The position numbers were made by a program, and so were the translations under genes. From positions 516,910 to 580,909 of the forward strand of contig NZ_BLJO01000002.1 of NCBI RefSeq assembly GCF_009932555.1: a stretch of 64,000 nt of DNA, in the 5' to 3' direction. Source of the stretch: Steroidobacter agaridevorans. Lineage in GTDB: Bacteria > Pseudomonadota > Gammaproteobacteria > Steroidobacterales > Steroidobacteraceae. The notes below the pieces were generated by a model. The model was given only the letters and a program-made list of their open reading frames with translations. It ran no database searches and had not been told where the DNA came from. Each line of letters begins with the position of its first letter. Position 1 is the first letter of the stretch. Below, piece after piece: positions 34,039 to 50,629 of this stretch.

Positions 34039-34115
34039 CGGGACGTGGCGCAGCCTGGTAGCGCACTTGCATGGGGTGCAAGGGGTCGCGAGTTCGAATC
34101 TCGCCGTCCCGACCA
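34039..34115 (+). tRNA. tRNA-Pro (anticodon GGG)
   Basis: A 77-nt cloverleaf: acceptor CGGGACG pairs with CGTCCCG, the D-loop has AGCCTGGTAGCGC, the anticodon stem CTTGC/GCAAG encloses loop ATGGGGT (anticodon GGG), the T arm has GTTCGAATC, and ACCA ends it with CCA encoded. Its 3' 46 nt form the att core used by the elements downstream. Confidence 0.95.
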
Positions 34116-34118: not shown

Positions 34119-34194
34119 TAAAACCCCGTAAAAACAAGCCTCTAAGCGCATCTCTTGCGCTTCCTCTTCAAGCTCGAAAATCGACGATTTTCTA

Positions 34195-34218
34195 TTCCGG
34201 CTACAGTTCCGGCTACAG
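34195..34218 (+). repeat. left arm-type sites of element 1
   Basis: Two tandem copies of TTCCGGCTACAG, 76 bases inside the left att. The same TCCGGCTACAG pair occurs at the right end (44347-44368), as expected for integrase arm-binding sites. Confidence 0.65.
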
Positions 34219-34300
34219 CCAGCTTTCAGCAAGAGCGGGCCGCCGCCAGTGGTGAGACACCGACGACGGCCCTGACCACAACTTGATCCTGGAGATCAAA

Positions 34301-34456
34301 GTCATGGCTGTGCTGATTATCCCGCGACCGGTTCGCGGATGCCTGTTTTGGTTTGTTGCTGAAGTGGGCTCCGAAGCCCTGGACGCCCCAATCCCCGCCT
34401 GGATCGGGGCGGAACCGCACTGTCCCGCCCTGTTGGGCGTCGGGGGTGCCGAATGA
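34301..34456 (+). CDS. small conserved element protein (MAVLIIPR type), 51 aa
   Basis: Starts MAVLIIPRPVRGCLFWFVAEV. Element 2 has a counterpart at 44827 starting MAVFIIPRIERGRLHFQVADL, so the first 20 residues and the leader GACGGCCCTGACCACAACTT upstream are conserved while the rest differs. CTGGAG lies 15 bases before the ATG. It overlaps the next gene as ATGA. Function unknown; it may be a leader peptide or a small regulator. Confidence 0.5.
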   Translation, partial: VMAVLIIPRPVRGCLFWFVAEVGSEALDAPIPAWIGAEPHCPALLGVGGAE

Positions 34457-34641
34457 GCGCCCTCGATCAATGGGACTTCGCCGTCCTCCACCTCGCTCTC
34501 GACTTCCTTGGCCATCACGCCGACACGGAATTGCTCAAGGCTCGCGAGCGGGGCAACCGACGGAAGCAGCTCTCAATGCTGGTCCTGCTCGAACAGATCG
34601 GGACGGTGCGCACGAAGCTGCGCTCGATGGTGTCGCCATGA
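34453..34641 (+). CDS. small element protein, 62 aa
   Basis: Second ORF of the left-end operon, coupled to its neighbours by ATGA overlaps on both sides. The sequence MSALDQWDFAVLHLALDFLGHHADTELL is mostly helical with no recognised motif (run broken by this note). A decayed copy of its start (GTGCCGAATGCGCGCCCTC) is found after att copy 3. Function unknown. Confidence 0.5.
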   Translation: MSALDQWDFAVLHLALDFLGHHADTELLKARERGNRRKQLSMLVLLEQIGTVRTKLRSMVSP

Positions 34642-34847
34642 AGGCGGCGACCGTCGATCCTGGCCGCCTGAAAGCAGCGGTCGGAGCTGAGCTTGGCCAC
34701 CTCCACAAAACCCATGCGCTGTTGATCGCCGTCCAGTTCGCTGCGAACCACGACGCCGACTTCGACGTGAGCGACGCGCTGGCCGTGATTCGGGATCGCG
34801 TGGAGCAATCGATCGCTCGCCTTGATGCGGCGGAGGTGCGGCCATGA
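34638..34847 (+). CDS. small element protein, 69 aa
   Basis: Third ORF of the left-end operon, ATGA-coupled at both ends. It is a helical protein (LKAAVGAELGHLHKTHALLIAVQFA) whose predicted helices resemble those of the third ORF of element 2 only loosely. Function unknown. Confidence 0.5.
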   Translation: MKAATVDPGRLKAAVGAELGHLHKTHALLIAVQFAANHDADFDVSDALAVIRDRVEQSIARLDAAEVRP

Positions 34848-35212
34848 TCAAGCAGGAAAGTCGCGCCTACTTCAAAGCACTAGGCGCTCACGTCTCGACG
34901 CTTCGCAAATCGCGAGGCATGACACAAGCGGAGCTGGCACGCGCTATCGGCGTGTCACAGCAGGCTGTGTTCGCGTACGAACTTGGCGACCGCCGCATTT
35001 CCGTGCTCGTGCTTGCCAAGCTCGCGAAGGTATTTTCGACCCCAGTCGGGGACCTCGTCGGCCTGTCCAAGCCAGTCCACGAGCGGAAGGGGCGGCTGTC
35101 TCCGCGCTGTATGAGACACGCGGAGCGGTTGCAGGCACTGTCGAAGACTCAACAGCGCTTTGTCATCCGAATCATCGACGTTCTGGAAACCAGTAATACA
35201 ACAAAGCACTGA
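34844..35212 (+). CDS. XRE-family helix-turn-helix regulator
   Basis: A 122-aa Cro/CI-type DNA-binding protein with the HTH at residues about 20-60 (GMTQAELARAIGVSQQAVFAYE). The C-terminal half is helical, ending VIRIIDVLETSNTTKH. The copy in element 2 differs at only five residues. It is the last gene of the four-ORF operon, followed by a strong terminator. It probably controls element gene expression; the GGTGTTGAC palindrome nearby is one candidate site. Confidence 0.85.
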   Translation: MIKQESRAYFKALGAHVSTLRKSRGMTQAELARAIGVSQQAVFAYELGDRRISVLVLAKLAKVFSTPVGDLVGLSKPVHERKGRLSPRCMRHAERLQALSKTQQRFVIRIIDVLETSNTTKH

Positions 35213-35241
35213 TGGCGATCCTTAAGGCAATGCTGCGAAGT

Positions 35242-35270
35242 GAGCCCGGCCCCGCGCCGGGCTCTTTATT
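35242..35270 (+). terminator. rho-independent terminator after xre (element 1)
   Basis: GAGCCCGGC / GCCGGGCTC 9-bp stem with a 5-base loop, followed by TTTATTT. It is conserved at 45783-45811. Confidence 0.85.
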
Positions 35271-35295
35271 TGGCGCAACCTCAACGATGTCTAGC

Positions 35296-35345
35296 GGCAG
35301 CGCCAAACCTCCCTGCTCTTTAATGCGGCCGAGGTTTGCGCCGCC
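35296..35345. other. conserved long hairpin, possible structured RNA
   Basis: GGCAGCGCCAAACCTC pairs with GAGGTTTGCGCCGCC across a 19-base loop, with one bulge and one G:T-type mismatch. The same structure is kept in element 2 at 45837-45886. No reading frame is conserved through it, because the elements differ by a 1-base indel nearby. Confidence 0.5.
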
Positions 35346-35429
35346 GTGAACCCGCCCAGCTACGCCGGAGCACGCATCAACGCATGCACCTCCTGTAAAC
35401 CCTCTTGCGGCCCCGGCGCGACCGGCAAA

Positions 35430-35450
35430 GGTGTTGACAGTGTCAACACC
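35430..35450. promoter_or_regulatory. perfect 21-bp palindrome (element 1)
   Basis: GGTGTTGAC-AGT-GTCAACACC lies between the xre terminator and the 3' end of the recombinase gene. It is unchanged at 45970-45990 in element 2. It could be an XRE operator or a processing site of the element. Confidence 0.6.
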
Positions 35451-35476
35451 AAGACAACGACAGAGAGCAAATTCCG

Positions 35477-36340
35477 CTAACTTCCAAGGTAGACCTTGGT
35501 GATCTCTATCCGCTCGTGCCCAAGCTCCCGGCTGATTATCAGGCGAGCTTCGAAATCCGCAAGGCGCTGAGAGACAGTCAAAGACTGCGTCGATGGCCCG
35601 CCAGCGGCTGGGGGTTTCCAGCCCGTCAGAGCTTCGTAGCGCAGTTGAGCATACGCGTGCCGCAATCCATGCATGCGCTTCAATTCCGCCAGCTTGCATT
35701 GCCGGTCGTAAACGTGGCGTTGTTCGATATACGTCTTCTCAGCGGGAATCAATGAGCGCTCGCCGACGAGCTTGTGTGCGAAGTCGAGCGCCGCCCGTTG
35801 TTCCGGCGTGATGATCGGAATAACGCGCTCACGACCACCTTTTGTCCATGAGCCTTTGATTCTCAGGTGGTCGCCTTGATCGGCATAGCGCGGCTGAAAC
35901 TTGATGCTCTCTTCGCGACGCAATCCGAACACCCTTTGCAATTCCAAGCTGGCGCGAACATACGGATCGCTGACCCTGCCTAGTTTGTCTTGCACCTCCG
36001 CCGCCTTGCTTACATTCGTCACAAACACTCGTTTGGGAATCTCAAGCTGGACGTTGCTGGACGCTATTAGTCCTTTCCTGCCGACCTTCTCGGCCCACCA
36101 GCGCAGATGCGCCATCCTGTTCTTGATCGTTCCCGCCGAGAGCCCATCATTCCGCCAACGTCCAAGCAGCGCATCTACATGCTTGCCGTTCAACGATGTG
36201 GCTTTCAATTGCCGGAAGCCGGCCTCCTTCAGTTGTCGAGCCATCAATTGCAAACAACCCTGTCGATCGCCTTGCGTGGCATGACTGCCATCTCGATTCC
36301 GGTCGCAAAGCTGACGCAGCGAATAAGCCAGACTATTCAT
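35477..36340 (-). CDS. Integrase_1-type tyrosine recombinase (element 1)
   Basis: A 287-aa tyrosine recombinase with a full catalytic set: Arg141 (FGLRREE), His224 and Arg227 (HGLRH), His275 (ELGHERI) and Tyr284 (KVYLGS). The N-terminal half (residues 1-115) is a core-binding domain. It resembles the Phage_integr_N/Integrase_1 type rather than the P4-like enzyme at the far end of the element. ATG 36340 is chosen because both element copies share the N-terminus MNxLAxxLRQLCDRNRDG. A palindrome, TGACCG-N2-CGGTCA, lies 56 bases upstream. It may resolve dimers or act on the nearby palindrome; this is inference. Confidence 0.82.
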   Translation of the reverse strand: MNSLAYSLRQLCDRNRDGSHATQGDRQGCLQLMARQLKEAGFRQLKATSLNGKHVDALLGRWRNDGLSAGTIKNRMAHLRWWAEKVGRKGLIASSNVQLEIPKRVFVTNVSKAAEVQDKLGRVSDPYVRASLELQRVFGLRREESIKFQPRYADQGDHLRIKGSWTKGGRERVIPIITPEQRAALDFAHKLVGERSLIPAEKTYIEQRHVYDRQCKLAELKRMHGLRHAYAQLRYEALTGWKPPAAGGPSTQSLTVSQRLADFEARLIISRELGHERIEITKVYLGS

Positions 36341-36395
36341 CGTGTTACTCCAAATGACATTGATCCAAATTCCACTAAACAACCTATTGCTGAGG

Positions 36396-36409
36396 TGACC
36401 GTGCGGTCA
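36396..36409. promoter_or_regulatory. palindrome upstream of recombinase gene (element 1)
   Basis: TGACCG-TG-CGGTCA, 56 bases before the recombinase start. In element 2 (46936-46949) it is TGACCG-CT-CGGTCA: the arms are kept while the centre changed, which suggests selection on an operator. Confidence 0.5.
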
Positions 36410-36549
36410 GTGTTAATGCCAACTCGCGCCAAGCGAGATCCCCCGAAGGGGCAAGGGCCAGGCACTCAGCGGAGCCTGTTGCCTCGTCTGAGGCTTCCGC
36501 CGTGCCTTCTGTTGAAAGCTCGGGCGGAGGTTTTGCATGGGTGAACACG

Positions 36550-36678
36550 ATGCGGATTCGCTTCGATAAGTTGTTTCCTATGTGGAAGTGGTTGAAGAAC
36601 GGAGCACCGATCACAGCCAGACGGCTGCGATCGGCGCAGAGAGTGACGACGCACGGCGACGTGCTTGGTGGTGCTTGA
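36550..36678 (+). CDS. conserved small ORF, 42 aa (element 1)
   Basis: Reads MRIRFDKLFPMWKWLKNGAP and on to DVLGGA. Element 2 has MRIYVDKLPPMWKWLKNGAP at 47091, with the same length, stop and C-terminus but several substitutions. The basic, Trp-rich motif is notable. Function unknown; coding status is suggested only by the shared frame. Confidence 0.4.
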   Translation: MRIRFDKLFPMWKWLKNGAPITARRLRSAQRVTTHGDVLGGA

Positions 36679-36926
36679 CGAAAGTGGCTCAACCTCCCAG
36701 GGGGAGGACGACGCGCGAGTGAGCCTGACGCGTCTGGGTGGGGCGACCGATTGGGTACGGCATCAGCGGGCTTCGTGCTCGCATGACGTGGCGCTATGCC
36801 CCGGCGCCGGTTGCCGGTGATTGTCTCCGCCGGCAGATCAGTCGGGAGCGAGTCTGCCCGGTGGCCATCATGTGAGCAACATTAAATACGATACGGCGCT
36901 CGACCATATTTTTGCTGCAGTTTCGC
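36679..36926. other. conserved non-coding block shared by both elements
   Basis: Nearly identical to 47220-47468 in element 2. It contains an AT-rich stretch (ATTAAATACGATACGGCG) in otherwise GC-rich DNA and ends in the hairpin at 36927. I see no convincing gene. A replication origin, transfer origin or RNA gene are options. Confidence 0.4.
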
Positions 36927-36957
36927 GGGCCGTCACTGCGGCGTGCAGTGACGGCCC
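36927..36957. other. strong hairpin (13-bp stem)
   Basis: GGGCCGTCACTGC-GGCGT-GCAGTGACGGCCC. It is identical at 47469-47499. No T-run follows it, so it is not a standard terminator. Sequence similarity between the two elements ends here. Confidence 0.6.
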
Positions 36958-37119
36958 TGACTTCCGGAAGAATCTGCAGCAGCAAGACTTGGATTGCTTC
37001 AGCACAAATCGTCGCGCCTTTCCGCGTCCACCTCGAATCGACCGCATGATTGCGCCTTGAGGCCGACGATCTGCCTTGAGCGAAGTATTCGACCAATCTC
37101 AGGGAGAGCCGGCGTTGTC

Positions 37120-37250
37120 CCGGCCCAAGTCGACCAAGCCTCTCTGGATGTACAAGGCTGCGTTGCTGGATCGGCTGCCGCATCACGTTCCTCATCGTGC
37201 AGATCGCGGGCGAGAGTTATCGCCTGAAGGACAAGCGGAAGGCGGGATAG
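37120..37250 (+). pseudogene. IS21-family istB 3' remnant
   Basis: One frame reads KPLWMYKAALLDRLPHH and, after a 1-base shift, IVQIAGESYRLKDKRKAG then stop. This matches the style of the C-terminus of IstB helper ATPases (LLDRLxHH, GESYRLK). The bases after the stop include CAGTGGTCAAACTATAC, as at an IS21 end. No istA or intact istB is present. The rest of 36958-37327 shows no gene. Confidence 0.4.
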
Positions 37251-37327
37251 ATCAAGCCGTCAGCAAATATTTAATAACAAACACCCAGTGGTCAAACTAT
37301 ACTTCGAGGTCTTCGGACTGAGGTGAG

Positions 37328-37696
37328 TCAAAATTCAGTCAGCGCTGGAATTGGCCCGGATGGCGCAGAGGGCTCTCCCTGAGAGGCCGCGATTACCTCT
37401 TCCCGGTAACCGTTGAGCTGAACGTATGTCCGGAATATCCGCGTGACCAGCTCGCTCCTGCTCCCAACGAGCAGTTTCCTGTAGAGCCTCTCTGTATGCG
37501 AATGCACGGTGTGGACCGAAATCGATAGTTGCTCCGCAACCTTGGCCTCGGAAAGGTCGGCGAGCATGAGCAGGCAGATCTCCGATTCTCGCGCTGAAAG
37601 TCGGAGATACGAGCGAATCGCTTGCCATTGCGTCTTGGAAATGAAGCTGACCGGTAACCGACTTCTATCTGAGCACTCGAGCCACTCGCCACCCAT
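37328..37696 (-). CDS. small LuxR-type helix-turn-helix protein
   Basis: A 122-aa protein with a GerE/LuxR HTH (LSARESEICLLMLADLSEAKVAEQLSISVHTVHSHTERLYRKL, residues about 31-73, broken here by this note). Only about 30 residues precede it, so there is no receiver or autoinducer domain. AAGGAGG 8 bases before ATG 37696 fixes the start. It lies downstream of and on the same strand as the periplasmic coiled-coil gene, facing away from the mau-like operon, and may regulate it. Confidence 0.75.
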   Translation of the reverse strand: MGGEWLECSDRSRLPVSFISKTQWQAIRSYLRLSARESEICLLMLADLSEAKVAEQLSISVHTVHSHTERLYRKLLVGSRSELVTRIFRTYVQLNGYREEVIAASQGEPSAPSGPIPALTEF

Positions 37697-37797
37697 TTCG
37701 CAACCCTCCTTGTTCTTTCGGCCCGCTCCAGTGCACAGAGAGTCCCGCAACGCCTTCCCTGAGGTTCGTTCACATTTGCCTGCGTAGCTGTCTTTGG

Positions 37798-38859
37798 CTA
37801 CTGGCTGATCAGATCCGTACGCCCAATGAACTCGAGGGCCGCTCGGCTCAGATCGATCTTGGCCCTGGCGCGCGCGAGCCTATGATCGAGCGTCGCCTGA
37901 TAGGCACTCAACTGCTGCGCAGACAGAGCGCTCGCAGCAGCCCGGGCCAGGCGCTCATTCGATGCCTGGATCGATTTGTAGTCACGTTCCAGCACCGCCA
38001 CATGTGCGCGCAAATTGTCCTCGGCGCTCTCAGGCGAAGCAACAGCTCGCCCGAAACCGCGAGGCGGAGTGCCCGTGTCCCGTTGTCTCGTCCGCTCATC
38101 GGCGATCGCCTTTACGAGCGCTTTGCGCTGATCCGGCCGAAGTTGTTCCCCGGCGCTCTCGAACGTCCGCTCCAGCGTGGCGACTTCGCGGCGGGCTTCC
38201 TTGGTCCGCTCTAATTCGATCCACTCGCGGTACTTGTCCGCACCAAGAAGCGCCTCGATCTCGGCATGCTGACGCTGCTCCCGCGACTGCTGGTTGAGAG
38301 TAGCGACGGTCGGTGCATCGCCCGACCCTTCAGCTCGATCTTTGTCAGTCACGCGTCCGGCCGACTCCTCGACCCACTGCAGCGAGTGATCCGCGAGAAG
38401 TTGCGCCAGCCGGCCAGCCATCTGAGGGGACAGCTGCAAAGCGTTAATACGCTCTGCATACATCTCCAGAGCAATCTGTTTCTGCAGCTCCCGGCTCGCG
38501 GCGCGATACTTTGGATCCTGCAGCAACTGCGATTGTTTGACGCCGAACAGGACCTCGATAGCCAGATTTCTATCCGCTGTCATCGGTTCGGCGATCGCAC
38601 GTTCCAATCGAGCCGCCACCGTATCGGCGCCTGCATGCGTCGATGCGTTGGGCGCTAATGCATTGGGCCGTGGCACCGGCTCGTCGGCCGGCGATGTCTT
38701 CTGCGGTACTTCCTCGAGTTCGGCCGCTCGGGGTTCATCGCGGGGGCATTCCTCGTTCGTCGCTGTCCTCAGCGCCGGTTCGGCGCGGGCCATGAGATAT
38801 ATAGTGGATGAAGCCAGCGCGAGCGTTGATAGGCTCAAGAGGATGACGGCTTTACTCAT
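37798..38859 (-). CDS. exported or anchored coiled-coil protein of unknown function
   Basis: A 353-aa protein with an N-terminal hydrophobic segment (VILLSLSTLALASSTIYLM) that acts as signal or anchor. A Pro/Glu-rich linker (residues about 30-75) and a long charged helical region (about 80-345) rich in Arg, Glu, Gln and Ala follow. LLGADKYREWIELE and LSPQMAGRLAQLL recall periplasmic Spy-like or phage-lysis helper helices, but I do not recognise the family. ATG 38859 puts the hydrophobic segment at the start. It is divergent from the mau-like operon, which shares its promoter region. Confidence 0.6.
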   Translation of the reverse strand: MSKAVILLSLSTLALASSTIYLMARAEPALRTATNEECPRDEPRAAELEEVPQKTSPADEPVPRPNALAPNASTHAGADTVAARLERAIAEPMTADRNLAIEVLFGVKQSQLLQDPKYRAASRELQKQIALEMYAERINALQLSPQMAGRLAQLLADHSLQWVEESAGRVTDKDRAEGSGDAPTVATLNQQSREQRQHAEIEALLGADKYREWIELERTKEARREVATLERTFESAGEQLRPDQRKALVKAIADERTRQRDTGTPPRGFGRAVASPESAEDNLRAHVAVLERDYKSIQASNERLARAAASALSAQQLSAYQATLDHRLARARAKIDLSRAALEFIGRTDLISQ

Positions 38860-38979
38860 ATCAAATGTCCATTTTGAACAGCAGTCACTCATGACTATAC
38901 GCTCAGCCTCCAAATCATCAACCGCCGGTCCGACGGCGCTGGCTGATGCCCGTCGGTTACGAATGGTTCGGCAATATCC

Positions 38980-39007
38980 ATGTAGGCTGCACAGGCGACA
39001 GCTACAT
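38980..39007. promoter_or_regulatory. imperfect inverted repeat in divergent promoter region
   Basis: ATGTAGGCTG and CAGCTACAT, separated by 9 bases with a one-base bulge. It lies between the coiled-coil gene and the mau-like operon and could bind the LuxR-type protein. No clear sigma-70 boxes were identified in 38860-39118. Confidence 0.3.
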
Positions 39008-39118
39008 AGCTGACTTGTCGGAATGCGCGAGACGCCGTAAGTACAACGACGACGTAACATCATCTGTACTGGTTGTGCAACGCGCGTCAGAACACTATCA
39101 ACTACGCAGCTCCACGCC

Positions 39119-39943
39119 ATGACAAACGTTCCATTGCACGAAAGATCGATATTGCACAGCGGCGAGGCAGCTGCCGTGCGCAATCAGTTCAAGATCGCAA
39201 CCTATATGCTCATCTGCGCAAGCGTCGCGGCTATCGGCGCGCTGGTTGCTGTCGATCTCACGTCGGCCGCGCTCGTGGCAGCCACCCTCTTCGGCTGGTC
39301 CGAAGTGGACGGCCTATGCGGAACCTCGCATGTCGGCACCCTGTCTCCGCTGCGCGTTCTGTCGAAGCGAATGTGGGTGAAGTCGGTAAGCGCATACACC
39401 GCCGGCGGATTGGCGACGGCCGCTTGCGTCGGCATGAGTGTTGGCGCCGTCGGCCAGCTGGCGCAGTTCGGCCATCCATATATTTCCGTGCTCATGTACG
39501 CACTGGTATCGGTGGTATCGCTCGGCCTCGCAGCGAGGGAGCTGAACCTGATCCAATTCCCGCTGCCGCAGATCCACCGACAGACGCACAAGGCCTGGGC
39601 CTCTGAATTCGGCGTCGCAAAAGCTGCCGGGATGTGGGGCTGCCACATCGGCCTCGCTTTCGCGACGGTCGTGCAGCATGGAGGCTTCTACGTTGTCGTA
39701 CTTTTGGCTGCCGTGTTGGGGCCGTCGAAAGGCGGACTCCTCTTCGCGACGTACTGGTTCGGGCGAACGCTCCCAATGTGGTTTGCGGGCACGTTGCCTA
39801 TCGATCGCTGCACCGCCCCGGAGCTGAATCGCCTTCTGCTTGAGAATCGCGCCGTGTACCGGCACGCCGCGGCAGCCGGCTTGTTGTGCATTCCAATCAT
39901 CGCGCTGCTGCTTGGCGTGGAGGTCGCGGTCACAACCGACTGA
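39119..39943 (+). CDS. polytopic membrane protein, first gene of mau-like operon (MauF-like position)
   Basis: A 274-aa protein with about six membrane segments (residues about 25-60, 95-112, 118-140, 168-190, 195-215, 245-268). A conserved-looking loop DGLCGTSHVGTLSPLRVL carries one Cys and one His, and a second loop has MWGCHIG. In methylamine dehydrogenase operons the first gene, mauF, encodes a multi-spanning membrane protein needed for making the enzyme. Position and topology fit, but I cannot prove homology by eye. It starts the six-gene operon. Confidence 0.5.
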   Translation: MTNVPLHERSILHSGEAAAVRNQFKIATYMLICASVAAIGALVAVDLTSAALVAATLFGWSEVDGLCGTSHVGTLSPLRVLSKRMWVKSVSAYTAGGLATAACVGMSVGAVGQLAQFGHPYISVLMYALVSVVSLGLAARELNLIQFPLPQIHRQTHKAWASEFGVAKAAGMWGCHIGLAFATVVQHGGFYVVVLLAAVLGPSKGGLLFATYWFGRTLPMWFAGTLPIDRCTAPELNRLLLENRAVYRHAAAAGLLCIPIIALLLGVEVAVTTD

Positions 39944-40004
39944 GCCGCCCAAGGATCCTCCGCACAAGGCGACGCCTATCATCACGGATCGAGGAATACT
40001 CGGC

Positions 40005-40622
40005 ATGTTCGAAACAACCTATGTCCTGCTTTGGGTCATCGCGATCATCCAAGGACTTGCGATCTGCTCCTTGATCCTAGATTTATCCGCGCTGCGCGAC
40101 GAAGCACCGAAAGGATTGAAGCCGGCGACCGAGGGGCTGCCGACCGGCAGTCCTGCACCTCGCTTTACCACGGTCGACGTGCGTTCGGGTGGGGTGATCG
40201 AGTGGTCCACATTGCGCGGCCGACGCACGGTGTTTCTGTTCCTGTCCGTCGACTGCGACACGTGCAAAATCCTGGTCTCGGAGTTGGCGTCGCTGGCTCC
40301 CGAGAGCTTGAGCGAAATACTCATCTGCTGCTCGGGCGCCGCCACGCGGTGTCGAGAAATCCTGGGTAGTCTGCCGAAGTCCGTGCCGATTCTCGATGAC
40401 AACCGCGCCTTGATCAGCAACCGATGCCGTTTGCGAACGCTGCCGGCATTAGTCGTCATCGATAGCGAATGGCAGATCGAAGCTTATCGCTATCCGGAGC
40501 ACTCCGCCGAGCTTCGGGATTTCCTTCCGGGCGCTCTCGCTGCGACAGCGCGCTCCGGGGCGGTTGCGAACTCGTTGCCAGCTGAAACCACTCCCAGTCA
40601 GCACGCTGTTGGCCAACACTGA
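40005..40622 (+). CDS. membrane-anchored thioredoxin-fold protein with CxxC (MauD-like)
   Basis: A 205-aa protein with an N-terminal anchor (YVLLWVIAIIQGLAICSLIL) then a redoxin domain facing the periplasm. PAPRFTTVDVRSGGVIEW precedes the strand FLFLSVDCDTCKILVSEL, where Cys84 and Cys87 form the active CxxC. The family includes MauD and TlpA, which handle disulfides during maturation of exported proteins. ATG 40005 is chosen because it gives the anchor directly. It probably works with the MauE-like protein and acts on the Cys-rich protein. Confidence 0.72.
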   Translation: MFETTYVLLWVIAIIQGLAICSLILDLSALRDEAPKGLKPATEGLPTGSPAPRFTTVDVRSGGVIEWSTLRGRRTVFLFLSVDCDTCKILVSELASLAPESLSEILICCSGAATRCREILGSLPKSVPILDDNRALISNRCRLRTLPALVVIDSEWQIEAYRYPEHSAELRDFLPGALAATARSGAVANSLPAETTPSQHAVGQH

Positions 40623-40625
40623 CGG

Positions 40626-41219
40626 GTGGTGCACACAATGACTATCGCCATGGACATCAGCGTCGTCACACTCAGCGCCCTCATCACGCTTGAGGCGCTG
40701 ACGTTGAGAACCATCCTGCGTGAAACGCGAGCACTGCAGGAGCTGTATGGAGTCGAGCCAGAACATGCCCCACGCAAGGGCTCACTTGGCATGCGAATGC
40801 CGAGCTTTTCGCTCCAAGAAATTGACTCAGGGCACTTAGTCACGGATCGGGACATGCGGGGTCAGCATGTGATGTTGCTGTTCGTCGCGCGCTCGAACGT
40901 TCTCGCGCTGGGTGTAGACACCTTCGCGGCTGTGGTGCAGGGATTGTTCACTCAAGCGGGAGAGCGGCTGTATCTCATCTGCGAGGGCGATACTGACGAC
41001 GCTCGTTGGATCCGAGATCGCAGCGACTTCTCCGCAAGGTATGGTGGGCGCTTGACTCTCTTAATCGCGCCGGACGCACACCTTCGGAAGCAGCTTCGTG
41101 CCACGTCCATGCCGAACTGCGTGGTGTTCGATGAGAAAGGCATCGTCAGGAAGATCGGCCACCCTGTAACCGAGCAACGAGCACCGGCGCCGAACCCGCC
41201 AGAGAAATCGCCGGAGTAG
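40626..41219 (+). CDS. second membrane-anchored thioredoxin-fold protein, lacking CxxC
   Basis: A 197-aa protein similar in layout to its neighbour: an N-terminal helix (MDISVVTLSALITLEALTL), then MRMPSFSLQEIDSGHLV and the strand MLLFVARSNVLAL, where the CxxC should stand but has no Cys. The later TSMPNCVVFDEKGIVRKIG keeps the cis-Pro region of the fold. It is therefore a redox-inactive paralogue, perhaps a chaperone-like partner of the active one. GTG 40626 or ATG 40638 may start it. Confidence 0.62.
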   Translation: MVHTMTIAMDISVVTLSALITLEALTLRTILRETRALQELYGVEPEHAPRKGSLGMRMPSFSLQEIDSGHLVTDRDMRGQHVMLLFVARSNVLALGVDTFAAVVQGLFTQAGERLYLICEGDTDDARWIRDRSDFSARYGGRLTLLIAPDAHLRKQLRATSMPNCVVFDEKGIVRKIGHPVTEQRAPAPNPPEKSPE

Positions 41220-41224
41220 CCAGC

Positions 41225-41653
41225 GTGGAGCAAACCGCAAGCACCGGATATCGGAAGATGGACAGCGAGGTGATGTGTGTAATCACCCGTTTCGAGGTTC
41301 GCTCGATCACGGCCCTGGTGCGACTGTACCGGTCGTTCCGGCGCATCAAAGCTCACTCGAAGAACATCGAGGGATTGATCGCCACGCGCTTTCTAATCGA
41401 GGGGCCACGCACTTGCATCACGCTGTCGCTGTGGAAGAACGGCGGCGCCATTCTGCAGTTCAACACGCGAGTCGTTGCTCACGTCCAGGCGGCAAATGCG
41501 TGTTTCCGCGATCTGGATCGAGGCAACGGACGCGCACACCTGTGGTCCGCTCAATTCAAACTTTTTGCCGTCAGCCCCCACAACCTCAACTGGGACGGCG
41601 TCGAAGTCACGAGCCCGCAACCGACACTCGCCCCAGAGCATCCTCACCTATGA
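41225..41653 (+). CDS. ABM/CrtA-like small protein in mau-like operon
   Basis: A 142-aa protein (or 126 aa from the Met at 41273). Blocks such as ITALVRLYRSFRRIKAHSKNI, RTCITLSLWKNGGAILQFNTR and HLWSAQFKLFAVSPHNLNW (each broken apart here) resemble the dimeric alpha-beta barrel fold of antibiotic biosynthesis monooxygenases and spheroidene monooxygenase-like proteins. It may bind haem or an aromatic substrate. The stop overlaps the MauE-like start as ATGA. This makes a possible oxidase of the cluster, but assignment is tentative. Confidence 0.5.
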   Translation: MEQTASTGYRKMDSEVMCVITRFEVRSITALVRLYRSFRRIKAHSKNIEGLIATRFLIEGPRTCITLSLWKNGGAILQFNTRVVAHVQAANACFRDLDRGNGRAHLWSAQFKLFAVSPHNLNWDGVEVTSPQPTLAPEHPHL

Positions 41654-42213
41654 GCACTCCGATGATTCCCCAGATCGCCCTCGCCGTGCAGCTTGCGGTC
41701 GGCTTGATCTTCCTGTGGTCGAGTCTGAGCAAGCTCGCGCACCCTGTCTCGTTCGTGGAAGGGCTGTCGGAGTACGCGATCTCGCGCACAATGCTCGCAA
41801 CCCCAATTGCCGTGGGCGTAATCCTAGCGGAAGGGTTCATCGCGCTGTCGCATCTCACCGGAGGGATGCTCGCGTCTGGCGTTTTCGGCGGCATAGTGCT
41901 GCTGCTGAGCTTCGCAAGCGTCCTCGTAGTCGTGCTCAAACGAGGCAAGCCCGTCCGATGCCTGTGCTTTGGAGTGACGCAGCAGGAACCTGTCTCATTT
42001 CAGACGTTTGCACGCGTGGGGCTGCTATTGGCTGCGGAGTTGTTGCTACAGTTCCTGCAGCGAGCCGGACTTCATTGGAACACACCGCTTGAGCTTACCC
42101 CAAGCGACCTTCTCGCAGCCCTGCTGTGCGCGGCGCTAGCTGTGCTTGCCGCGTCCTGGGTCATCGTTGCGCCGGAAATTCTCATTCGATTGTCGAACGC
42201 AGTCCCGCGATAA
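41650..42213 (+). CDS. MauE/DoxX-family redox membrane protein
   Basis: A 187-aa inner-membrane protein with four to five helices. Typical features are SSLSKLAHPVSFVEGLSEYAI near the start (broken here), a hydrophobic helix pair, and the cytosol/periplasm-boundary motif KPVRCLCFG with Cys104 and Cys106, the CxCFG signature of MauE. Known MauE proteins are needed to form disulfides in the methylamine dehydrogenase small subunit and pair with MauD. It is coupled to the upstream gene by ATGA. Confidence 0.75.
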   Translation: MSTPMIPQIALAVQLAVGLIFLWSSLSKLAHPVSFVEGLSEYAISRTMLATPIAVGVILAEGFIALSHLTGGMLASGVFGGIVLLLSFASVLVVVLKRGKPVRCLCFGVTQQEPVSFQTFARVGLLLAAELLLQFLQRAGLHWNTPLELTPSDLLAALLCAALAVLAASWVIVAPEILIRLSNAVPR

Positions 42214-42259
42214 CGAGGACAACGAATCGTCCTTGATCCGACGCCGATAGGGAGGTTTC

Positions 42260-42640
42260 ATGTCACGAGCAATCATCAAGGTGGTGGAAGGCGCTCTGAG
42301 CCGACGAAGATTTCTGTATTCGATTGCAACTGCGAGCGGTGCGCTACTCGCAGGAATCATGGGGACAGCTCGTGCCGGCGGCTCCTGCACGGTCATAGGC
42401 TGCTGCTGTCTGTGTGAAACCGGCCCCTACAATCCTGCGAACTGCGTGTGCGAATGGTCCTGGTGGTGCTGCTATGCCAGCAACCTCTACGCGTGCTACG
42501 AGTGCTTCGGGCCAAGCCATACGTGTTGCACAAAGGATTGTACCGGCGTGATTGCCTCCAAGATCGTCCACATCTCACCGGTGAACCCGCAAGTCTGCCC
42601 CGAATTCGAGTCGTGCCTCGGATGCGACATGTGCGGCTGA
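42260..42640 (+). CDS. Tat-exported Cys-rich small protein (18 Cys), probable substrate of the mau-like system
   Basis: A 126-aa protein. Residues 14-19 are SRRRFL, a twin-arginine motif, followed by a hydrophobic stretch and a cut site near TARA at residue 39. The mature part of about 87 residues holds 18 cysteines (43, 48, 49, 50, 52, 62, 64, 70, 71, 79, 82, 89, 90, 94, 113, 119, 122, 125), enough for nine disulfides, and a Trp cluster WSWW at 66-69. Methylamine dehydrogenase light chain is also a small exported protein with many disulfides and a Trp-derived cofactor, and its gene follows mauE-mauD. I cannot align this protein to it convincingly, so it may be a new family. Confidence 0.72.
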   Translation: MSRAIIKVVEGALSRRRFLYSIATASGALLAGIMGTARAGGSCTVIGCCCLCETGPYNPANCVCEWSWWCCYASNLYACYECFGPSHTCCTKDCTGVIASKIVHISPVNPQVCPEFESCLGCDMCG

Positions 42641-42644
42641 AGCT

Positions 42645-42890
42645 CTACTGTAGGGGGCTACGAGGATTTGAGAGGGAGTCGAGATATCGACGGATTGTGG
42701 ATCTGCGCCATCGATGCGCAGATCCCAGCCGGCCGGGCACGTCTGGCGGCGGAAATCGGCCGCGCGCAATCAGCTCCGATATCCATCGGCGGGTGTAACC
42801 GGTTGCCCGCTCCACGTCGCGCGTCTTTATAAATCCATCCAGTTCTTCGGCGATCTGCTCGGGGGTCGGGCTGGTGGAATGCGTCGGCAT
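42645..42890 (-). CDS. AlpA-like excisionase/regulator (element 1)
   Basis: An 81-aa MerR/AlpA-type helix-turn-helix protein. TRDVERATGYTRRWISELIARGRFPPPD is the typical recognition unit (broken here), and the wing ends HRWRRSTIRRYL. Such genes sit beside P4-like integrases and act as excisionase or integrase activator. It follows the integrase gene on the same strand. Copies are found at 47603 and 50848. Confidence 0.8.
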   Translation of the reverse strand: MPTHSTSPTPEQIAEELDGFIKTRDVERATGYTRRWISELIARGRFPPPDVPGRLGSAHRWRRSTIRRYLDSLSNPRSPLQ

Positions 42891-43002
42891 GTTTTCTGCA
42901 CCACTATTGAAGGTGGGCAGACTGTGCCGGTACGCATCAGCTATGTGCGAGTAACAATGTGGACCGACGCCAAACCGTATTGTTTTGGGACAGCTCGCTC
43001 GG

Positions 43003-44301
43003 TCATTGCCCTGATCCGCTTGCTCGCGCTATCGGCACGATCTTGCTCGGCTTGCCGTCGATGATCGAACGCAATTCCGCTTCCCATGTGGCGAGAGCAC
43101 GTTGCTTCTCGTCCCAGTATCCGTAGCGATCGTAGACAGCGGTGACGTCGCCACCCTCGCTGTGATTCAAAACCTTGCCGACGTGCAAACGCTGGATGCC
43201 GAGCGTGGTCATGTGCGTGGCGGCCGTGCGGCGCAAGTCGTGTGGCGTAAATGGCTCGCAGCCGAACAGCTTCTCGTCCACCTGATTGTTTCTCAGCGCT
43301 CGCGACAGAGCGCGCTCACTGATTGGCTCGGCAGGTTTGAGCGTCGAATGCACTGACGGCAGCAGATATGGGCGGCCATTCGCGAGTCTGCGCAACTCCT
43401 CGATGATCTCGATCGCAAGGTCGGTGAGCGGGACAACGTGCGGGCGTTCGCTCTTGTTGTCGCCGATACGCCAGAGTCGTTGGGCAACGTCAATATCGTT
43501 GAACTTCGCCTGCGCGATCTCACCGGGGCGCTGCGCGGTAACGAGGATAAGTTTCAGTGCAAGCCGGATCGGCAGTGAGATCTTCGTCTTCGCATCGTCC
43601 AGGCCGAGCCAGAACCGTCCGATCTCGTCTCGGTTAAGGCTGCGTTCCTTTGCGTGCTCCTGACCGCCGGGCTTCTTCAGAAGGCCGGCGGCCGGCGAGC
43701 TCGGGATCAAGTCACGCATTGCTGCGAAGTTGAATACTTGGGCCGTCAGGTCGCGGACCCGATTTGCCATTACAGTGCTACCACGCGCGAGGATCTTGTC
43801 GATGATTAGCACGAGGTCGCGCTTCGTGATGTCGCTCGCCGGTTTATCCTTCACCGGTGCCTGCAGAAGATGGACCCGCAGCAGCCGTATCGCTTCGCGC
43901 GGCCGTTTGCGGTGACGACGGGCGTGGTGCCACGCCCATTCGGCGATGACATTGCGGACCGTGACGGCCTCCGTTAGCTGTCGCGCTTCCTCCTGGCGCT
44001 GGTGCTCGATGCGCAGCCGTTCCCGCTCGACCTTCGGATCAAGGCCCTGCGCTAACTGCTTGCGGACTTCGGCATGCGCCTCGTGCGCTTGATCGAGCGT
44101 CATCGCGGGATATTCGCCGAGCGTCAGCCACACGGGCTTGCCGTTGCGCTGATAGCGGACCAACCACACGAGAGCGCCACCTGTGCGGTGACGGAGGATG
44201 AACCCGACACGGCCGGCCTCACTGTATGTTGTGTCCTCGGCGGGGCGGCTATCGAGCAAAGACTTCAGCCAAGTCGGGGTAAAGCGCTTTTTCGCCGGCA
44301 T
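43003..44301 (-). CDS. P4-like tyrosine integrase (element 1)
   Basis: A 432-aa integrase with an N-terminal arm-binding DUF4102-like domain (LVWLVRYQRNGKPVWLTLGEYPAMTL, broken here), a core-binding domain, and a C-terminal catalytic domain. Catalytic features are Arg in TAQRPGEIAQAKFNDID, HDLRRTAATHM, LNHSEGG and Tyr in TAVYDRYGY. It probably integrates element 1 at tRNA-Pro. It lies 200 bases inside att copy 2, near the arm-type sites. It differs clearly from the integrase of element 2, although both use the same att core. Confidence 0.9.
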   Translation of the reverse strand: MPAKKRFTPTWLKSLLDSRPAEDTTYSEAGRVGFILRHRTGGALVWLVRYQRNGKPVWLTLGEYPAMTLDQAHEAHAEVRKQLAQGLDPKVERERLRIEHQRQEEARQLTEAVTVRNVIAEWAWHHARRHRKRPREAIRLLRVHLLQAPVKDKPASDITKRDLVLIIDKILARGSTVMANRVRDLTAQVFNFAAMRDLIPSSPAAGLLKKPGGQEHAKERSLNRDEIGRFWLGLDDAKTKISLPIRLALKLILVTAQRPGEIAQAKFNDIDVAQRLWRIGDNKSERPHVVPLTDLAIEIIEELRRLANGRPYLLPSVHSTLKPAEPISERALSRALRNNQVDEKLFGCEPFTPHDLRRTAATHMTTLGIQRLHVGKVLNHSEGGDVTAVYDRYGYWDEKQRALATWEAELRSIIDGKPSKIVPIARASGSGQ

Positions 44302-44346
44302 GGTGTCGGTCTGGCCGGCAGTGCCTACGACATGCGAGGCGTTCGG

Positions 44347-44368
44347 TCCGGCTACAGTCCGGCTACAG
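44347..44368 (+). repeat. right arm-type sites of element 1
   Basis: Two tandem copies of TCCGGCTACAG, matching the left-end pair at 34195-34218. Confidence 0.65.
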
Positions 44369-44503
44369 TTTATTTCATTCTAGACCCTTCCGCAGCAGTG
44401 CTCGGAAGAGTAGGATTGAAGCCGCTGAAAGACTGGTTTTACCGGTATTTTCGTGGCTCGGAAGAGTGATGAACTAGGCGGGTGCGAGAGAGGCTTTCAA
44501 GCG

Positions 44504-44552
44504 CATGGGGTGCAAGGGGTCGCGAGTTCGAATCTCGCCGTCCCGACCAATC
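44504..44552 (+). repeat. att copy 2 (junction of elements 1 and 2)
   Basis: Exact 49-bp copy of the tRNA-Pro 3' end. Only the 3' half of the tRNA is present, so it is not a functional tRNA gene. Confidence 0.92.
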
Positions 44553-44595
44553 AATTCAACGACTTAGAACGACGGTCTTTTGGTGGTATCTCTCC

Positions 44596-44615
44596 AGGGT
44601 ACAGCTAAGGGTACA
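44596..44615 (+). repeat. left arm-type sites of element 2
   Basis: AGGGTACA twice with 12-base period, 44 bases inside att copy 2. The right end (52708-52728) has GGGGTACAG twice with the same period. The sequence differs from the element 1 arm sites, which fits the different integrase. Confidence 0.6.
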
Positions 44616-44826
44616 AAGTCGTCCGCTCCTGCCTTCATCCACTCGTAGCAGGAGAAAGTTCATGCAACCCGATGATTTTCCGTGCCTCACCGCCGGCCAC
44701 TCTCGACCGCTCGACGTCATCGTGCCCGCCTGATCGCGAAGTACTGAGTTCGAGAAGCGAGCCGCCGCGGTGTTAGAGCACCACGACGGCCCTGACCACA
44801 ACTTCACCTGAGTTAGAGGTGGTGTC

Positions 44827-44940
44827 ATGGCTGTGTTCATTATCCCGCGCATCGAGCGCGGTCGTCTCCATTTCCAAGTCGCTGACCTTCTCGTCCCAGA
44901 TCTGGCGCTAATCGTCGGAGGTGCCGCATGGACGGCATGA
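44827..44940 (+). CDS. small conserved element protein (MAVFIIPR type), 37 aa
   Basis: Counterpart of the 51-aa ORF of element 1: same leader, same start MAVFIIPR, then a different C-terminus ending AAWTA. It overlaps the next ORF by 13 bases. Conservation of only the first 20 residues could mean a leader peptide whose translation controls the operon. Confidence 0.45.
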   Translation: MAVFIIPRIERGRLHFQVADLLVPDLALIVGGAAWTA

Positions 44941-45143
44941 CCGACATCGCCGAAGCGCACGCCACTGCGCTTGTTTTGCGTGCCACCGCAAAGGCCGTTC
45001 GCGGCGAACGCGGCCCGCTGATGTTCCGACTCAATCGTGCCGCCGACATTCTCGATGGCATGGCTGCGCTCGCTGTGCGGTGCCTTGAACGCATCAAGCA
45101 GTTAGAAGAGGAACTGCGTCAGTTCCGGGCCGGTGGGAAGTGA
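44928..45143 (+). CDS. small element protein, 71 aa
   Basis: Second ORF of the left-end operon of element 2. A helical protein (AEAHATALVLRATAKAVRG, CLERIKQLEEELRQFRAGG), partly coiled coil. It occupies the same position as the 62-aa ORF of element 1 but is not clearly related. Its stop overlaps the next start as GTGA. Function unknown. Confidence 0.5.
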   Translation: MDGMTDIAEAHATALVLRATAKAVRGERGPLMFRLNRAADILDGMAALAVRCLERIKQLEEELRQFRAGGK

Positions 45144-45388
45144 GCGGCGCCGGCAAGGCCGGGAGGCGCCCCGAGCGCGCCTCGGGCCAGACAACGGCGC
45201 TCGGTCTGGACCCGCTCAATGTGGCAATCAGAAACATGCAATTGGCCCACGCCGTCGCGACAGTGGCGGAACGGGCAGCAACGCACGACATGGTCGAGGT
45301 TCACTGCCTGGCTGACGTGCTCGTCGCCATCATTCCTCTCATTGAGCACGGACTCGATGCGCTCGATGCACTGGAGGCGCGGCAATGA
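45140..45388 (+). CDS. small element protein, 82 aa
   Basis: Third ORF of the left-end operon of element 2, GTG start, coupled to both neighbours. Its C-terminal helical part (NMQLAHAVATVAERA, VLVAIIPLIEHGLDALDALEA) loosely recalls the 69-aa third ORF of element 1. Function unknown. Confidence 0.5.
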   Translation: MSGAGKAGRRPERASGQTTALGLDPLNVAIRNMQLAHAVATVAERAATHDMVEVHCLADVLVAIIPLIEHGLDALDALEARQ

Positions 45389-45753
45389 TCAAGCAGGAAA
45401 GCCGCACATACTTCAAAGCCCTCGGCGCATACGTCACTACACTACGGAAATCGCGAGGAATGACTCAAGCGGAGCTTGCGCGCGCTATCGGTGTGTCACA
45501 GCAGGCTGTGTTCGCGTACGAACTTGGCGACCGCCGCATCTCCGTGCTCGTGCTTGCCAAGCTCGCGAACGTATTTTCGACCCCGGTCGGAGACCTCGTC
45601 GGCCTGTCCAAGCCGGTACGCGAACGGAAGGGGCGATTGTCTCCGCGCTGTATGAGACACGCGGAGCGGTTGCAGGCACTGTCGAAGACGCAACAGCGCT
45701 TTGTCATCCGAATCATCGACGTTCTGGAAACCAGTAATACAACAAAGCACTGA
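45385..45753 (+). CDS. XRE-family helix-turn-helix regulator (element 2)
   Basis: A 122-aa protein identical to the element 1 XRE protein except at residues 8, 16, 18, 62 and 79. The HTH region (GMTQAELARAIGVSQQAVFAYE, broken at the run limit) is unchanged, so both regulators should recognise the same operator and the two elements may cross-regulate. ATG overlaps the preceding stop as ATGA. Confidence 0.85.
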   Translation: MIKQESRTYFKALGAYVTTLRKSRGMTQAELARAIGVSQQAVFAYELGDRRISVLVLAKLANVFSTPVGDLVGLSKPVRERKGRLSPRCMRHAERLQALSKTQQRFVIRIIDVLETSNTTKH

Positions 45754-45782
45754 TAGCGATCCATAAGGCAGTGCTGCGAAGT

Positions 45783-45811
45783 GAGCCCGGCCCCGCGCCG
45801 GGCTCTTTAAT
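45783..45811 (+). terminator. rho-independent terminator after xre (element 2)
   Basis: GAGCCCGGC / GCCGGGCTC stem followed by TTTAATT; same as in element 1. Confidence 0.85.
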
Positions 45812-45836
45812 TGGCGCAACCTTAACGATGCCAAGC

Positions 45837-45886
45837 GGCAGCGCCAAACCTCCCTGCTCTTTGATGCGGCCGAGGTTTGCGCCGCC
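45837..45886. other. conserved long hairpin (element 2)
   Basis: GGCAGCGCCAAACCTC pairs with GAGGTTTGCGCCGCC; counterpart of 35296-35345. Confidence 0.5.
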
Positions 45887-45969
45887 GTGAACCCGCCCAG
45901 CTACGCCGGAGCACGCATCAACGCATCCACCTCCTGCAAACCCCTCGCGGCTCCGGCGCGACCGGCAAA

Positions 45970-45990
45970 GGTGTTGACAGTGTCAACACC
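45970..45990. promoter_or_regulatory. perfect 21-bp palindrome (element 2)
   Basis: GGTGTTGAC-AGT-GTCAACACC, identical to 35430-35450 and in the same place, before the recombinase 3' end. Confidence 0.6.
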
Positions 45991-46016
45991 AAGACAACGA
46001 CAGCCAGCAAAGTCCG

Positions 46017-46880
46017 CTAACTTCCAAGGTAGACCTTGGTGATCTCTATCCGCTCGTGCCCAAGCTCCCGGCTGATTATCAGGCGAGCTTCGAAATCTGC
46101 AAGGCGCTGAGAGACAGTCAAAGACTGCGTCGATGGCCCGCCGGCTGCCGGGGGTTTCCAGCCCGTCAGAGCTTCGTAACGCAGTTGGGCGTACGCGTGC
46201 CGCAATCCATGCATGCGCTTCAATTCCGCCATCTTGCATTGGCGGTCGTAAACGTGACGTTGCTCGATGTACGTTTTGTCGGCAGGAATCAAAGAGCGCT
46301 CGCCCACGAGTTTGTGTGCGAAATCGAGGGCCGCCCGCTGTTCCGATGAGATGATTGGAATAACGCGCTCACGACCACCTTTCGTCCACGATCCTTTTAT
46401 TTTCAGGTGGTCGCCTTGATCGGCATAGTGCGGCTGGAACTTGATGCTCTCTTCACGGCGCAATCCGAACACTCTTTGCAATTCTAAGCTGGCGCGAACA
46501 TACGGATCGCTGACCCTGCCCAACTTGCCTTGAACCTCGGCCGCCTTGCTTACATTTGTCACAAACACTCGTTTTGGAATATCAAGCTGGATGTTGCTGG
46601 ACGCTATCAGCCCCTTCCTGCCGATCTTCTCAGCCCACCAGCGCAGATGCGCCATCCTGTTCTTGATCGTTCCCGCCGACAGTCCATCATTCCGCCAACG
46701 TCCAAGCAGCGCGTCTACATGCTTGCCGTTCAACGATGTGGCTTTCAATTGCCGGAAGCCGGCCTCCTTCAGTTGTCGAGCCATCAGTTTCAAACAATCC
46801 CGTCGATCGCCTTGCGTAGCATGGCTGCCATCTCGATTCCGGTCGCAAAGCTGACGCAACGTATGAGCCAAATTATTCAT
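46017..46880 (-). CDS. Integrase_1-type tyrosine recombinase (element 2)
   Basis: A 287-aa protein nearly identical to the recombinase at 35477. The catalytic residues are all present (FGLRREE, HGLRH, ELGHERI, KVYLGS). Substitutions are scattered (for example YSLRQL to HTLRQL and GCLQLM to DCLKLM), which shows the two copies have diverged under constraint rather than by recent duplication. Start and palindrome context are the same as in element 1. Confidence 0.82.
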   Translation of the reverse strand: MNNLAHTLRQLCDRNRDGSHATQGDRRDCLKLMARQLKEAGFRQLKATSLNGKHVDALLGRWRNDGLSAGTIKNRMAHLRWWAEKIGRKGLIASSNIQLDIPKRVFVTNVSKAAEVQGKLGRVSDPYVRASLELQRVFGLRREESIKFQPHYADQGDHLKIKGSWTKGGRERVIPIISSEQRAALDFAHKLVGERSLIPADKTYIEQRHVYDRQCKMAELKRMHGLRHAYAQLRYEALTGWKPPAAGGPSTQSLTVSQRLADFEARLIISRELGHERIEITKVYLGS

Positions 46881-46935
46881 CGTCTTCCTCCAAATGCCGT
46901 TAATCCAAATTCCACTAAACAACCTATTGCTGAGG

Positions 46936-46949
46936 TGACCGCTCGGTCA
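46936..46949. promoter_or_regulatory. palindrome upstream of recombinase gene (element 2)
   Basis: TGACCG-CT-CGGTCA, 56 bases before the recombinase start; see the element 1 copy at 36396. Confidence 0.5.
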
Positions 46950-47090
46950 GTGTTAATGCCAACTCGCGTCAAGCGAGATCCCCCGAAGGGGCAAGGGCCA
47001 GGCGCTCAGCGGAGCCTGTTGCCTCGGCTGAGGCTTCCGCCGTGCCTTCTGTTGAAAGCTCGGGCGGAGGTTTTGCAAAGGTGGAAGACG

Positions 47091-47219
47091 ATGCGGATCT
47101 ACGTGGATAAGTTGCCTCCTATGTGGAAGTGGTTGAAGAACGGAGCACCGATCGCAGCCATGCGGCTGCGATCGGCGCAGAGAGTGACGACGCACGATGA
47201 CGTGCTCGGCGGTGCGTGA
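47091..47219 (+). CDS. conserved small ORF, 42 aa (element 2)
   Basis: Reads MRIYVDKLPPMWKWLKNGAP then AAMRLRSAQRVTTHDDVLGGA, with frame and length kept against the element 1 copy. Function unknown. Confidence 0.4.
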   Translation: MRIYVDKLPPMWKWLKNGAPIAAMRLRSAQRVTTHDDVLGGA

Positions 47220-47468
47220 CCAAAGCGGCTCAACCTCCTTGGGGGAGGACGACGCGCGAGTGAGCTTGTCGCGTCTAGGTGGGGCGACCGATTGGGTACG
47301 GCATCAGCAGGCTTGGTGCTCGCATGATGTGGCGCTTATGCCCCGGCGCCGGTTGCCGGTGATTGTCTCCGCCGGCAGATCAGTCGCGAGCGAGTCTGCC
47401 CGGTGGCTATCATGTGAGCGACATTAAATACGATACGGCGCGCGACCATATTTTTGCTGCAGTTTCGA
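47220..47468. other. conserved non-coding block (element 2)
   Basis: Counterpart of 36679-36926, nearly identical and without a convincing gene. It ends in the hairpin at 47469. Confidence 0.4.
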
Positions 47469-47499
47469 GGGCCGTCACTGCGGCGTGCAGTGACGGCCC
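47469..47499. other. strong hairpin (element 2)
   Basis: GGGCCGTCACTGC-GGCGT-GCAGTGACGGCCC, as at 36927-36957. Confidence 0.6.
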
Positions 47500-47529
47500 G
47501 CGAAGCATCGGAAGAAGGTGCAGCAACAG

Positions 47530-47584
47530 TCAATCGACTGTTGCAGGCATCACCGGAGACGGAATCGGATTGGCGGAGCCCCGA
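47530..47584 (-). pseudogene. fragment of aqpS 3' end inside element 2
   Basis: The bottom strand reads RGSANPIPSPVMPATVD then stop, against RGSVKPSCAPAMPATVD at the end of the aqpS gene at 53917. The DNA TCAATCGACTGTTGC is shared exactly. Only the last codons of the gene are present. It marks an old exchange with an ars-carrying element. Confidence 0.55.
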
Positions 47585-47602
47585 CAAAAGCTCGTTAGCC
47601 CG

Positions 47603-50600: not shown

Positions 50601-50629
50601 CTACTGGCGCAACGCCCGCTTCACGCGGG

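Follow-up and report, generated by a model that had tools for sequence, protein, structure and literature searches.

In the mau and aau operons of amine dehydrogenases, MauD- and MauE-like proteins are encoded together with a cysteine-rich protein that carries a signal of the twin-arginine translocation (Tat) type, and the mau operon also encodes a MauF; an amine dehydrogenase operon without MauF is described in an excerpt of PMC2474590. The roles of MauF, MauE and MauD in the making of methylamine dehydrogenase are still partly conjecture. Related proteins occur in Streptomyces, where, according to excerpts of PMC7794033, three candidate families of ribosomally synthesized and post-translationally modified peptides (RiPPs), obtained with decRiPPter, carry MauE, one of them also MauD, beside a small precursor with at least eight Cys, and the three genomes named there are without other mau orthologues. 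The same excerpts argue for a new role of the MauE/MauD proteins, treating that of MauE as speculative and that of MauD as unclear. Here we describe a six-gene operon at positions 39119-42640 of a 64,000-nucleotide stretch of Steroidobacter agaridevorans DNA (contig NZ_BLJO01000002.1, positions 516,910 to 580,909; hereafter the window), in which MauF-, MauD- and MauE-like genes (genes 1, 2 and 5) and two further genes (3 and 4) precede a gene for a Cys-rich protein with a Tat-type signal (gene 6).

The operon shares its MauD- and MauE-like proteins and the following Cys-rich Tat-type protein with mau and aau, and its MauF-like protein with mau. It differs from both in that no heavy chain, MauG or acceptor was recognised in it, that PF02975 does not match its presumed client, that a CxxC-less sister (gene 3) and gene 4 are added, and that the D-like gene precedes the E-like gene. 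From the Streptomyces families, as these are described in the excerpts of PMC7794033, it is set apart by the MauF-like protein, the Tat-type signal, the 18 Cys of the client, the phylum and the location on an integrated island. Those candidate RiPP clusters are, as far as the excerpts go, the nearest published idea, and the window is a case of it from a different phylum. In the open-licence PubMed Central literature, we found no account of an orphan set that includes a MauF. The comparison suggests that mau-type helpers have been recruited to build a product that is still undescribed, and we consider it rather probable that the operon is a stand-alone, mau-derived oxidative-folding line re-dedicated to one new Cys-rich client, gene 6. 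An orphan set with a small client, and without a heavy chain or known quinone chemistry, would allow the presumed disulfide-building step to be studied alone and would show that the mau machinery can be moved to new clients.

Six genes and their resemblance to Mau proteins

According to the ORF listing and a reading of the sequence, the six plus-strand genes lie nearly end to end within 3.5 kb; genes 4 and 5 overlap by 4 bases, and the remaining gaps are 61, 3, 5 and 46 bases. Gene 1 (39119..39943, 274 aa) encodes a MauF-like membrane protein. It has no Pfam match, and Paracoccus MauF has none either; therefore, the proteins were compared directly with those of named mau loci. The test profiles were made from known Mau proteins alone (two MauFs, four MauDs and known MauEs), with window sequences excluded, and were searched against the ORFs of at least 45 aa from 85 comparison loci and nine window proteins, with matches listed up to E 1. 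Gene 1 was the sole match of the MauF profile (E 1.9e-9). Its residues 37-229 aligned with Paracoccus MauF at 25 bits in phmmer, and the Cys, Gly and Ser of the MauF CGYS motif are retained, so that the similarity, at about 25% identity, extends over most of the length and includes the conserved Cys.

Gene 2 (40005..40622, 205 aa) encodes a MauD-like thioredoxin-fold protein. It was recovered by the MauD profile with an E value of 1.5e-5, and the only other matches were ten MauDs, all from loci with a light chain. A known MauD aligned with it at 31 bits in phmmer, the CxxC being retained as CDTC. Gene 5 (41650..42213, 187 aa) encodes a MauE-type membrane protein and matched the Pfam MauE family PF07291 with an E value of 4.4e-19 and 70.5 bits, within the range of the MauEs of ten light-chain loci (64-102.6 bits) and above the other 74 listed places (at most 57.5 bits). 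Its CxC (CLCFG) aligns with the CxC of known MauEs, and the MauE profile ranks it 11th, right behind the MauEs of the ten light-chain loci. A MauE tree of 67 rows (62 of the 85 loci yielded an ORF to the profile and 23 were dropped) placed gene 5 without resolution among the amine-dehydrogenase MauEs, outside two groups that comprise 41 and 10 of the remaining rows. The operon thus combines MauE- and MauD-type proteins as mau and aau do, with gene 2 far below the cut-off of the NCBIfam MauD model (E 5.5e-4, 19.4 bits, cut-off 188.6).

The two remaining genes are less easily placed. Gene 3 (40626..41219, alternative start 40638; 197 aa) has an N-terminal hydrophobic segment and matched AhpC/TSA (PF00578) below the cut-off, with an E value of 3.9e-4, and MauD with about 10 bits. 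It is a distant relative that lacks a CxxC and has Cys at 119 and 165 only. Gene 4 (41225..41653, 142 aa, with a later ATG start possible) matched no Pfam or NCBIfam family up to E 10 and gave three PDB sequence matches with E 1.3-1.5; its predicted structure is of low confidence, with a predicted local distance difference test (pLDDT) score of 38. A preliminary description of this DNA, made from the letters alone, had proposed six tightly packed genes here, and the packing and place were borne out, as were the MauF-like gene 1, the CxxC thioredoxin-fold gene 2, the MauE-type gene 5 with its CxCFG, and the Tat-type gene 6 with WSWW. Its CxxC-less sister holds for gene 3 as far as the absent CxxC goes, the resemblance to AhpC/TSA and MauD being just weak, and its ABM/CrtA label for gene 4 was not confirmed.

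In the folding line that we favour, gene 6 would be exported by the Tat route, its signal being read from the sequence, and its 18 Cys would be oxidised in the periplasm to form up to nine disulfides. On the model of mau and from the co-location of the genes, the MauE-like gene 5 would hand on oxidising equivalents through its CxC, the MauD-like gene 2 would shuffle or proof-read disulfides with its CDTC, the MauF-like gene 1 would support both in the membrane, and the CxxC-less gene 3 may bind the client non-catalytically. The gene order is in keeping with this, since gene 6 stands behind E- and D-like genes as MauA does. Once finished, the gene 6 product is likeliest to be locked by disulfides and either periplasmic or secreted, and it may resemble a bacteriocin or a RiPP.

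Several points weigh against such a folding line. Genes 1, 2 and 5 share just 20-28% identity with Mau proteins, and the MauE profile puts gene 5 only about 1 bit ahead of a MauE whose locus lacks a light chain (40.5 versus 39.4). The branch of gene 5 in the MauE tree is very long, and the tree is weak evidence. The MauF profile test has no independent positive, because none of the 85 loci contains a MauF. Kinship of gene 6 with MauA is not detectable, and the conservation of the pairing between client and helpers cannot be shown because neither the operon nor gene 6 had a homologue in the searches. Finally, the formation of disulfides by MauE itself is speculation in the excerpts of PMC7794033.

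Gene 6 and its relation to amine dehydrogenase light chains

Gene 6 (42260..42640, 126 aa) is preceded by the ribosome site AGGGAGG. An SRRRFL motif near the N-terminus and an ARA cut site, both assigned by reading, leave a mature part of 87 residues (42377-42637); the NCBIfam model TAT_signal_seq matched with an E value of 0.039 and 14.3 bits, under its cut-off of 16.7. About one-fifth of the mature residues (18) are Cys, and the only three Trp all lie in an EWSWWCC cluster. With a Cys fraction of 0.143, gene 6 ranks first among the 303 ORFs in the window that are 80 aa or longer, the runner-up having 0.116. Single-sequence models of the mature protein reached a pLDDT of 61.8 in the best of five and 30-45 in the rest. 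A fold search with the model gave 14 matches, every one with an E value of 3.6 or worse, and no sequence relative was found in the PDB.

One could argue that the mau-like genes are decaying remnants and that the ORF of gene 6 is spurious or has nothing to do with them. Its lack of homologues fits this, as does its GC content by codon position (0.47, 0.59 and 0.69), which is unlike that of genes 1-5; however, the shift is explained by the Cys and Trp codons, which give just such values. Shadow-like frames elsewhere in the window also attain 12-13 Cys per 87 residues: among the six-frame stop-free stretches of this length, 55 have at least 12 Cys, 38 of them at gene 6, the other 17 being divided between two places elsewhere. 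However, all 33 stretches with at least 14 Cys are at gene 6. Together with its ribosome site and Tat-type signal, the six intact and packed frames and the coding-like GC in genes 1-5, this makes decay or chance the least probable of the explanations considered here.

Gene 6 cannot be recognised as a light chain of methylamine dehydrogenase, which was the outcome of the family comparison that the preliminary description had called for. It did not match the amine dehydrogenase light chain family PF02975 up to E 10, whereas three known light chains used as controls scored 177-184 bits. Its score with a profile built from six light chains was -17.2 bits; of 2000 full and 2000 Cys-keeping shuffles, 1893 and 1941, respectively, scored as high. 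The pairwise score (45) was reached by 569 and 530 of 1000 shuffles, and the likeness of its signal peptide to those of light chains was at chance level, with 324 of 1000 shuffles as high. Gene 6 resembles light chains in its signal type, its wealth of Cys and its position. The view first proposed, in which an orphan set of mau-like maturation genes accompanies a Cys-rich client, is upheld by the profile matches and these tests.

Other partners of methylamine dehydrogenase were sought in the same genome. No light chain (PF02975) was present, and the heavy chain family PF06433 gave no match in a search without a positive control, the 14 control genomes being likewise blank; the model itself detects Paracoccus MauB (E 2.4e-211). 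This agrees with the absence of the heavy chain noted earlier. The absence of MauG stands for the window's contig only, because the MauG family PF03150 has four matches elsewhere in the genome, three of them over the cut-off. Two strong genes of this MauG/cytochrome c peroxidase family are on contigs C6 and C3 (L021 and L022).

A protein with a Trp-derived quinone or a Trp-Cys cross-link, made without a heavy chain, would account for the mau-type helpers, for the EWSWWCC cluster beside Cys and for the MauG-family genes elsewhere in the genome. The known cofactor, tryptophan tryptophylquinone (TTQ), requires two separate Trp. In gene 6, the second, distant Trp is missing, since Trp occurs only in the one cluster. 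Moreover, no enzyme that would oxidise Trp, oxygenase, acceptor cytochrome or amicyanin was recognised in the six genes with Pfam and NCBIfam, the genome yielded no heavy chain, and kinship with light chains was not detectable. A cofactor of this kind is therefore improbable. We give similarly little credence to a stand-alone gene 6 with a new redox centre, such as a Trp quinone or Trp-Cys, in which genes 3 and 4 would replace the heavy chain and MauG and which would be spread as island cargo. Trp-quinone formation in gene 6 is unsupported, and the Trp modification first suggested for it was not sustained.

The Cys of gene 6 are arranged partly in CC, CCC and CxC runs, which would also suit a metallothionein- or Csp-like protein that takes up its metal in the cytoplasm and is exported, already folded, by Tat, with the redox proteins keeping its thiols reduced. 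Folded proteins are carried by Tat, and Cation_efflux matches gene 5 below its threshold (E 0.099, 12.8 bits versus a cut-off of 26.6). However, no metal regulator or metal-binding family was found in the scanned genes, and gene 6 has no sequence relative in the PDB. The disulfide formation speculated for MauE in the excerpts of PMC7794033 is the opposite of keeping thiols reduced. We consider metal binding unlikely, if somewhat less so than a Trp-derived cofactor.

Occurrence of the operon and the neighbourhoods of other MauE genes

The neighbourhoods of other MauE genes were compared with the operon. At a match threshold of E 1e-6, MauE was found in 71 of 317 Pseudomonadota genomes, the window's own counted. 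The 85 comparison loci comprise the 84 listed places that remain when gene 5 is left out, together with a weaker MauE match from the genome of the window; they span about 5 kb on each side of MauE, and ten were cut short by contig ends. A light chain was found at ten of the 85 loci, from eight genomes, and MauD at those ten and at no other. A Tat motif followed by at least six Cys occurred in six ORFs, all of them light chains and at six of the ten light-chain loci, the motif being strict enough to miss the other four light chains. A broader Cys screen (frames up to 260 aa with at least 10 Cys in 80 residues) yielded 32 frames, nine of which are light chains (the tenth was missed); the other 23 lack a Tat motif and are shadow-like by reading. 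Thus the MauE-family membrane proteins at the remaining 75 loci share the MauE domain with gene 5, but the combination of MauD and a Tat-type Cys-rich protein seen in the window was not encountered there. The association of MauE with Cys-rich Tat proteins, proposed earlier as a check, was accordingly seen at these 85 loci only where the Cys-rich protein is a light chain.

Searches for relatives of the operon used genome samples that overlap and are small against the whole. Among 398 genomes of the phylum, gene 6 turned up solely in that of the window. Two weak matches among 296 genomes of the order (L003/L004) were rejected: one runs through stops, and the other is short, with 30-33% identity in a 90-residue frame beside longer open frames. 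By sequence, gene 1 had no relative in 295 other genomes of the order. The gene 1/MauF profile found only the window's own genome and none of 13 other members of the genus, and added one weak match (E 5.9e-5) among the 398 phylum genomes. A search with gene 5 in 274 genomes of the class found one other MauE, without such neighbours in 3.3 kb. Species-wide pattern scans, which rely on short conserved stretches and can miss distant relatives, gave 81 stretches and no relative for gene 6, and 213 stretches with two relatives, both from Methylorubrum, for a MauF alignment led by gene 1. No relative was found in plasmids with genes 1 to 6, in phages with gene 6, in IMG/VR with genes 6 and 1, or in PADLOC, and PHROGs gave nothing better than E 0.22.

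The rarity of the operon and its carriage on an island would fit a RiPP or bacteriocin cluster, in which the gene 6 precursor would release a disulfide-rich peptide for antagonism or signalling, with genes 3 and 4 acting in modification or immunity. To our knowledge, a bacteriocin would not commonly be exported through Tat as an 87-residue mature protein. Pfam and NCBIfam revealed among the six genes no transporter, no peptidase and no RiPP enzyme of a known kind. The Streptomyces candidate families, with their MauE (and MauD) and Cys-rich precursors, speak for this alternative, as far as the excerpts of PMC7794033 describe them. We see it as a real but minor possibility, and one whose probability does not exclude the oxidative-folding line, because it is the same line with its end use named.

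The integrated island and its neighbours

The operon is carried by an integrated genomic island of 10.4 kb (34119..44552), delimited by perfect 50-bp direct repeats (34069-34118 and 44503-44552). The insertion target is a tRNA-Pro (GGG) gene found with ARAGORN (34039..34115, plus strand), the 3' part of which lies in the repeat. A tyrosine integrase gene (43003..44301, minus strand; PF00589, E 9.6e-21) adjoins the right repeat just inside the island. These features show that the mobile element of the preliminary description is an integrated island, but not that it moves. Between gene 6 and the integrase lies a gene for a small HTH_17/AlpA-like island protein (42645..42890, minus strand; PF12728, E 7.1e-5, and PF05930, E 0.023, both below the cut-off).

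Upstream of the operon, a gene with one N-terminal hydrophobic segment followed by a long soluble part, and with no family, is transcribed divergently (37798..38892, minus strand; ORF listing). Its start at 38892 was picked by reading, the longest ORF starting at 39183, and its membership of the operon's system is uncertain. Next to it, a LuxR-type (GerE) regulator gene (37328..37750, minus strand; PF00196, E 8.8e-13) possibly regulates the operon.

A second, related island (44553-52908) occupies the same tRNA-Pro site in tandem, and the 31-bp core of the repeat recurs at 52878-52908. We infer two related islands in tandem from the repeats, from an integrase inside each end and from the similar left ends, stretches of which are 83-97% identical. 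The left module common to both (34844-36382 and 45385-46922) encodes a Cro/C1-type regulator and a second tyrosine recombinase, of the Integrase_1 type. The HTH_17/AlpA-like gene stretch beside gene 6 (42670-42907) recurs in the second island (47628-47865) with 84% identity. The GC content is 0.597 and 0.596 in the two islands, 0.633 in the left flank and 0.609 in the right flank. The second island has its own integrase (51205-52809; PF00589, E 4.7e-25) just inside the third repeat copy, and its cargo includes a sulfatase gene (48812-50293; PF00884, E 1.4e-51).

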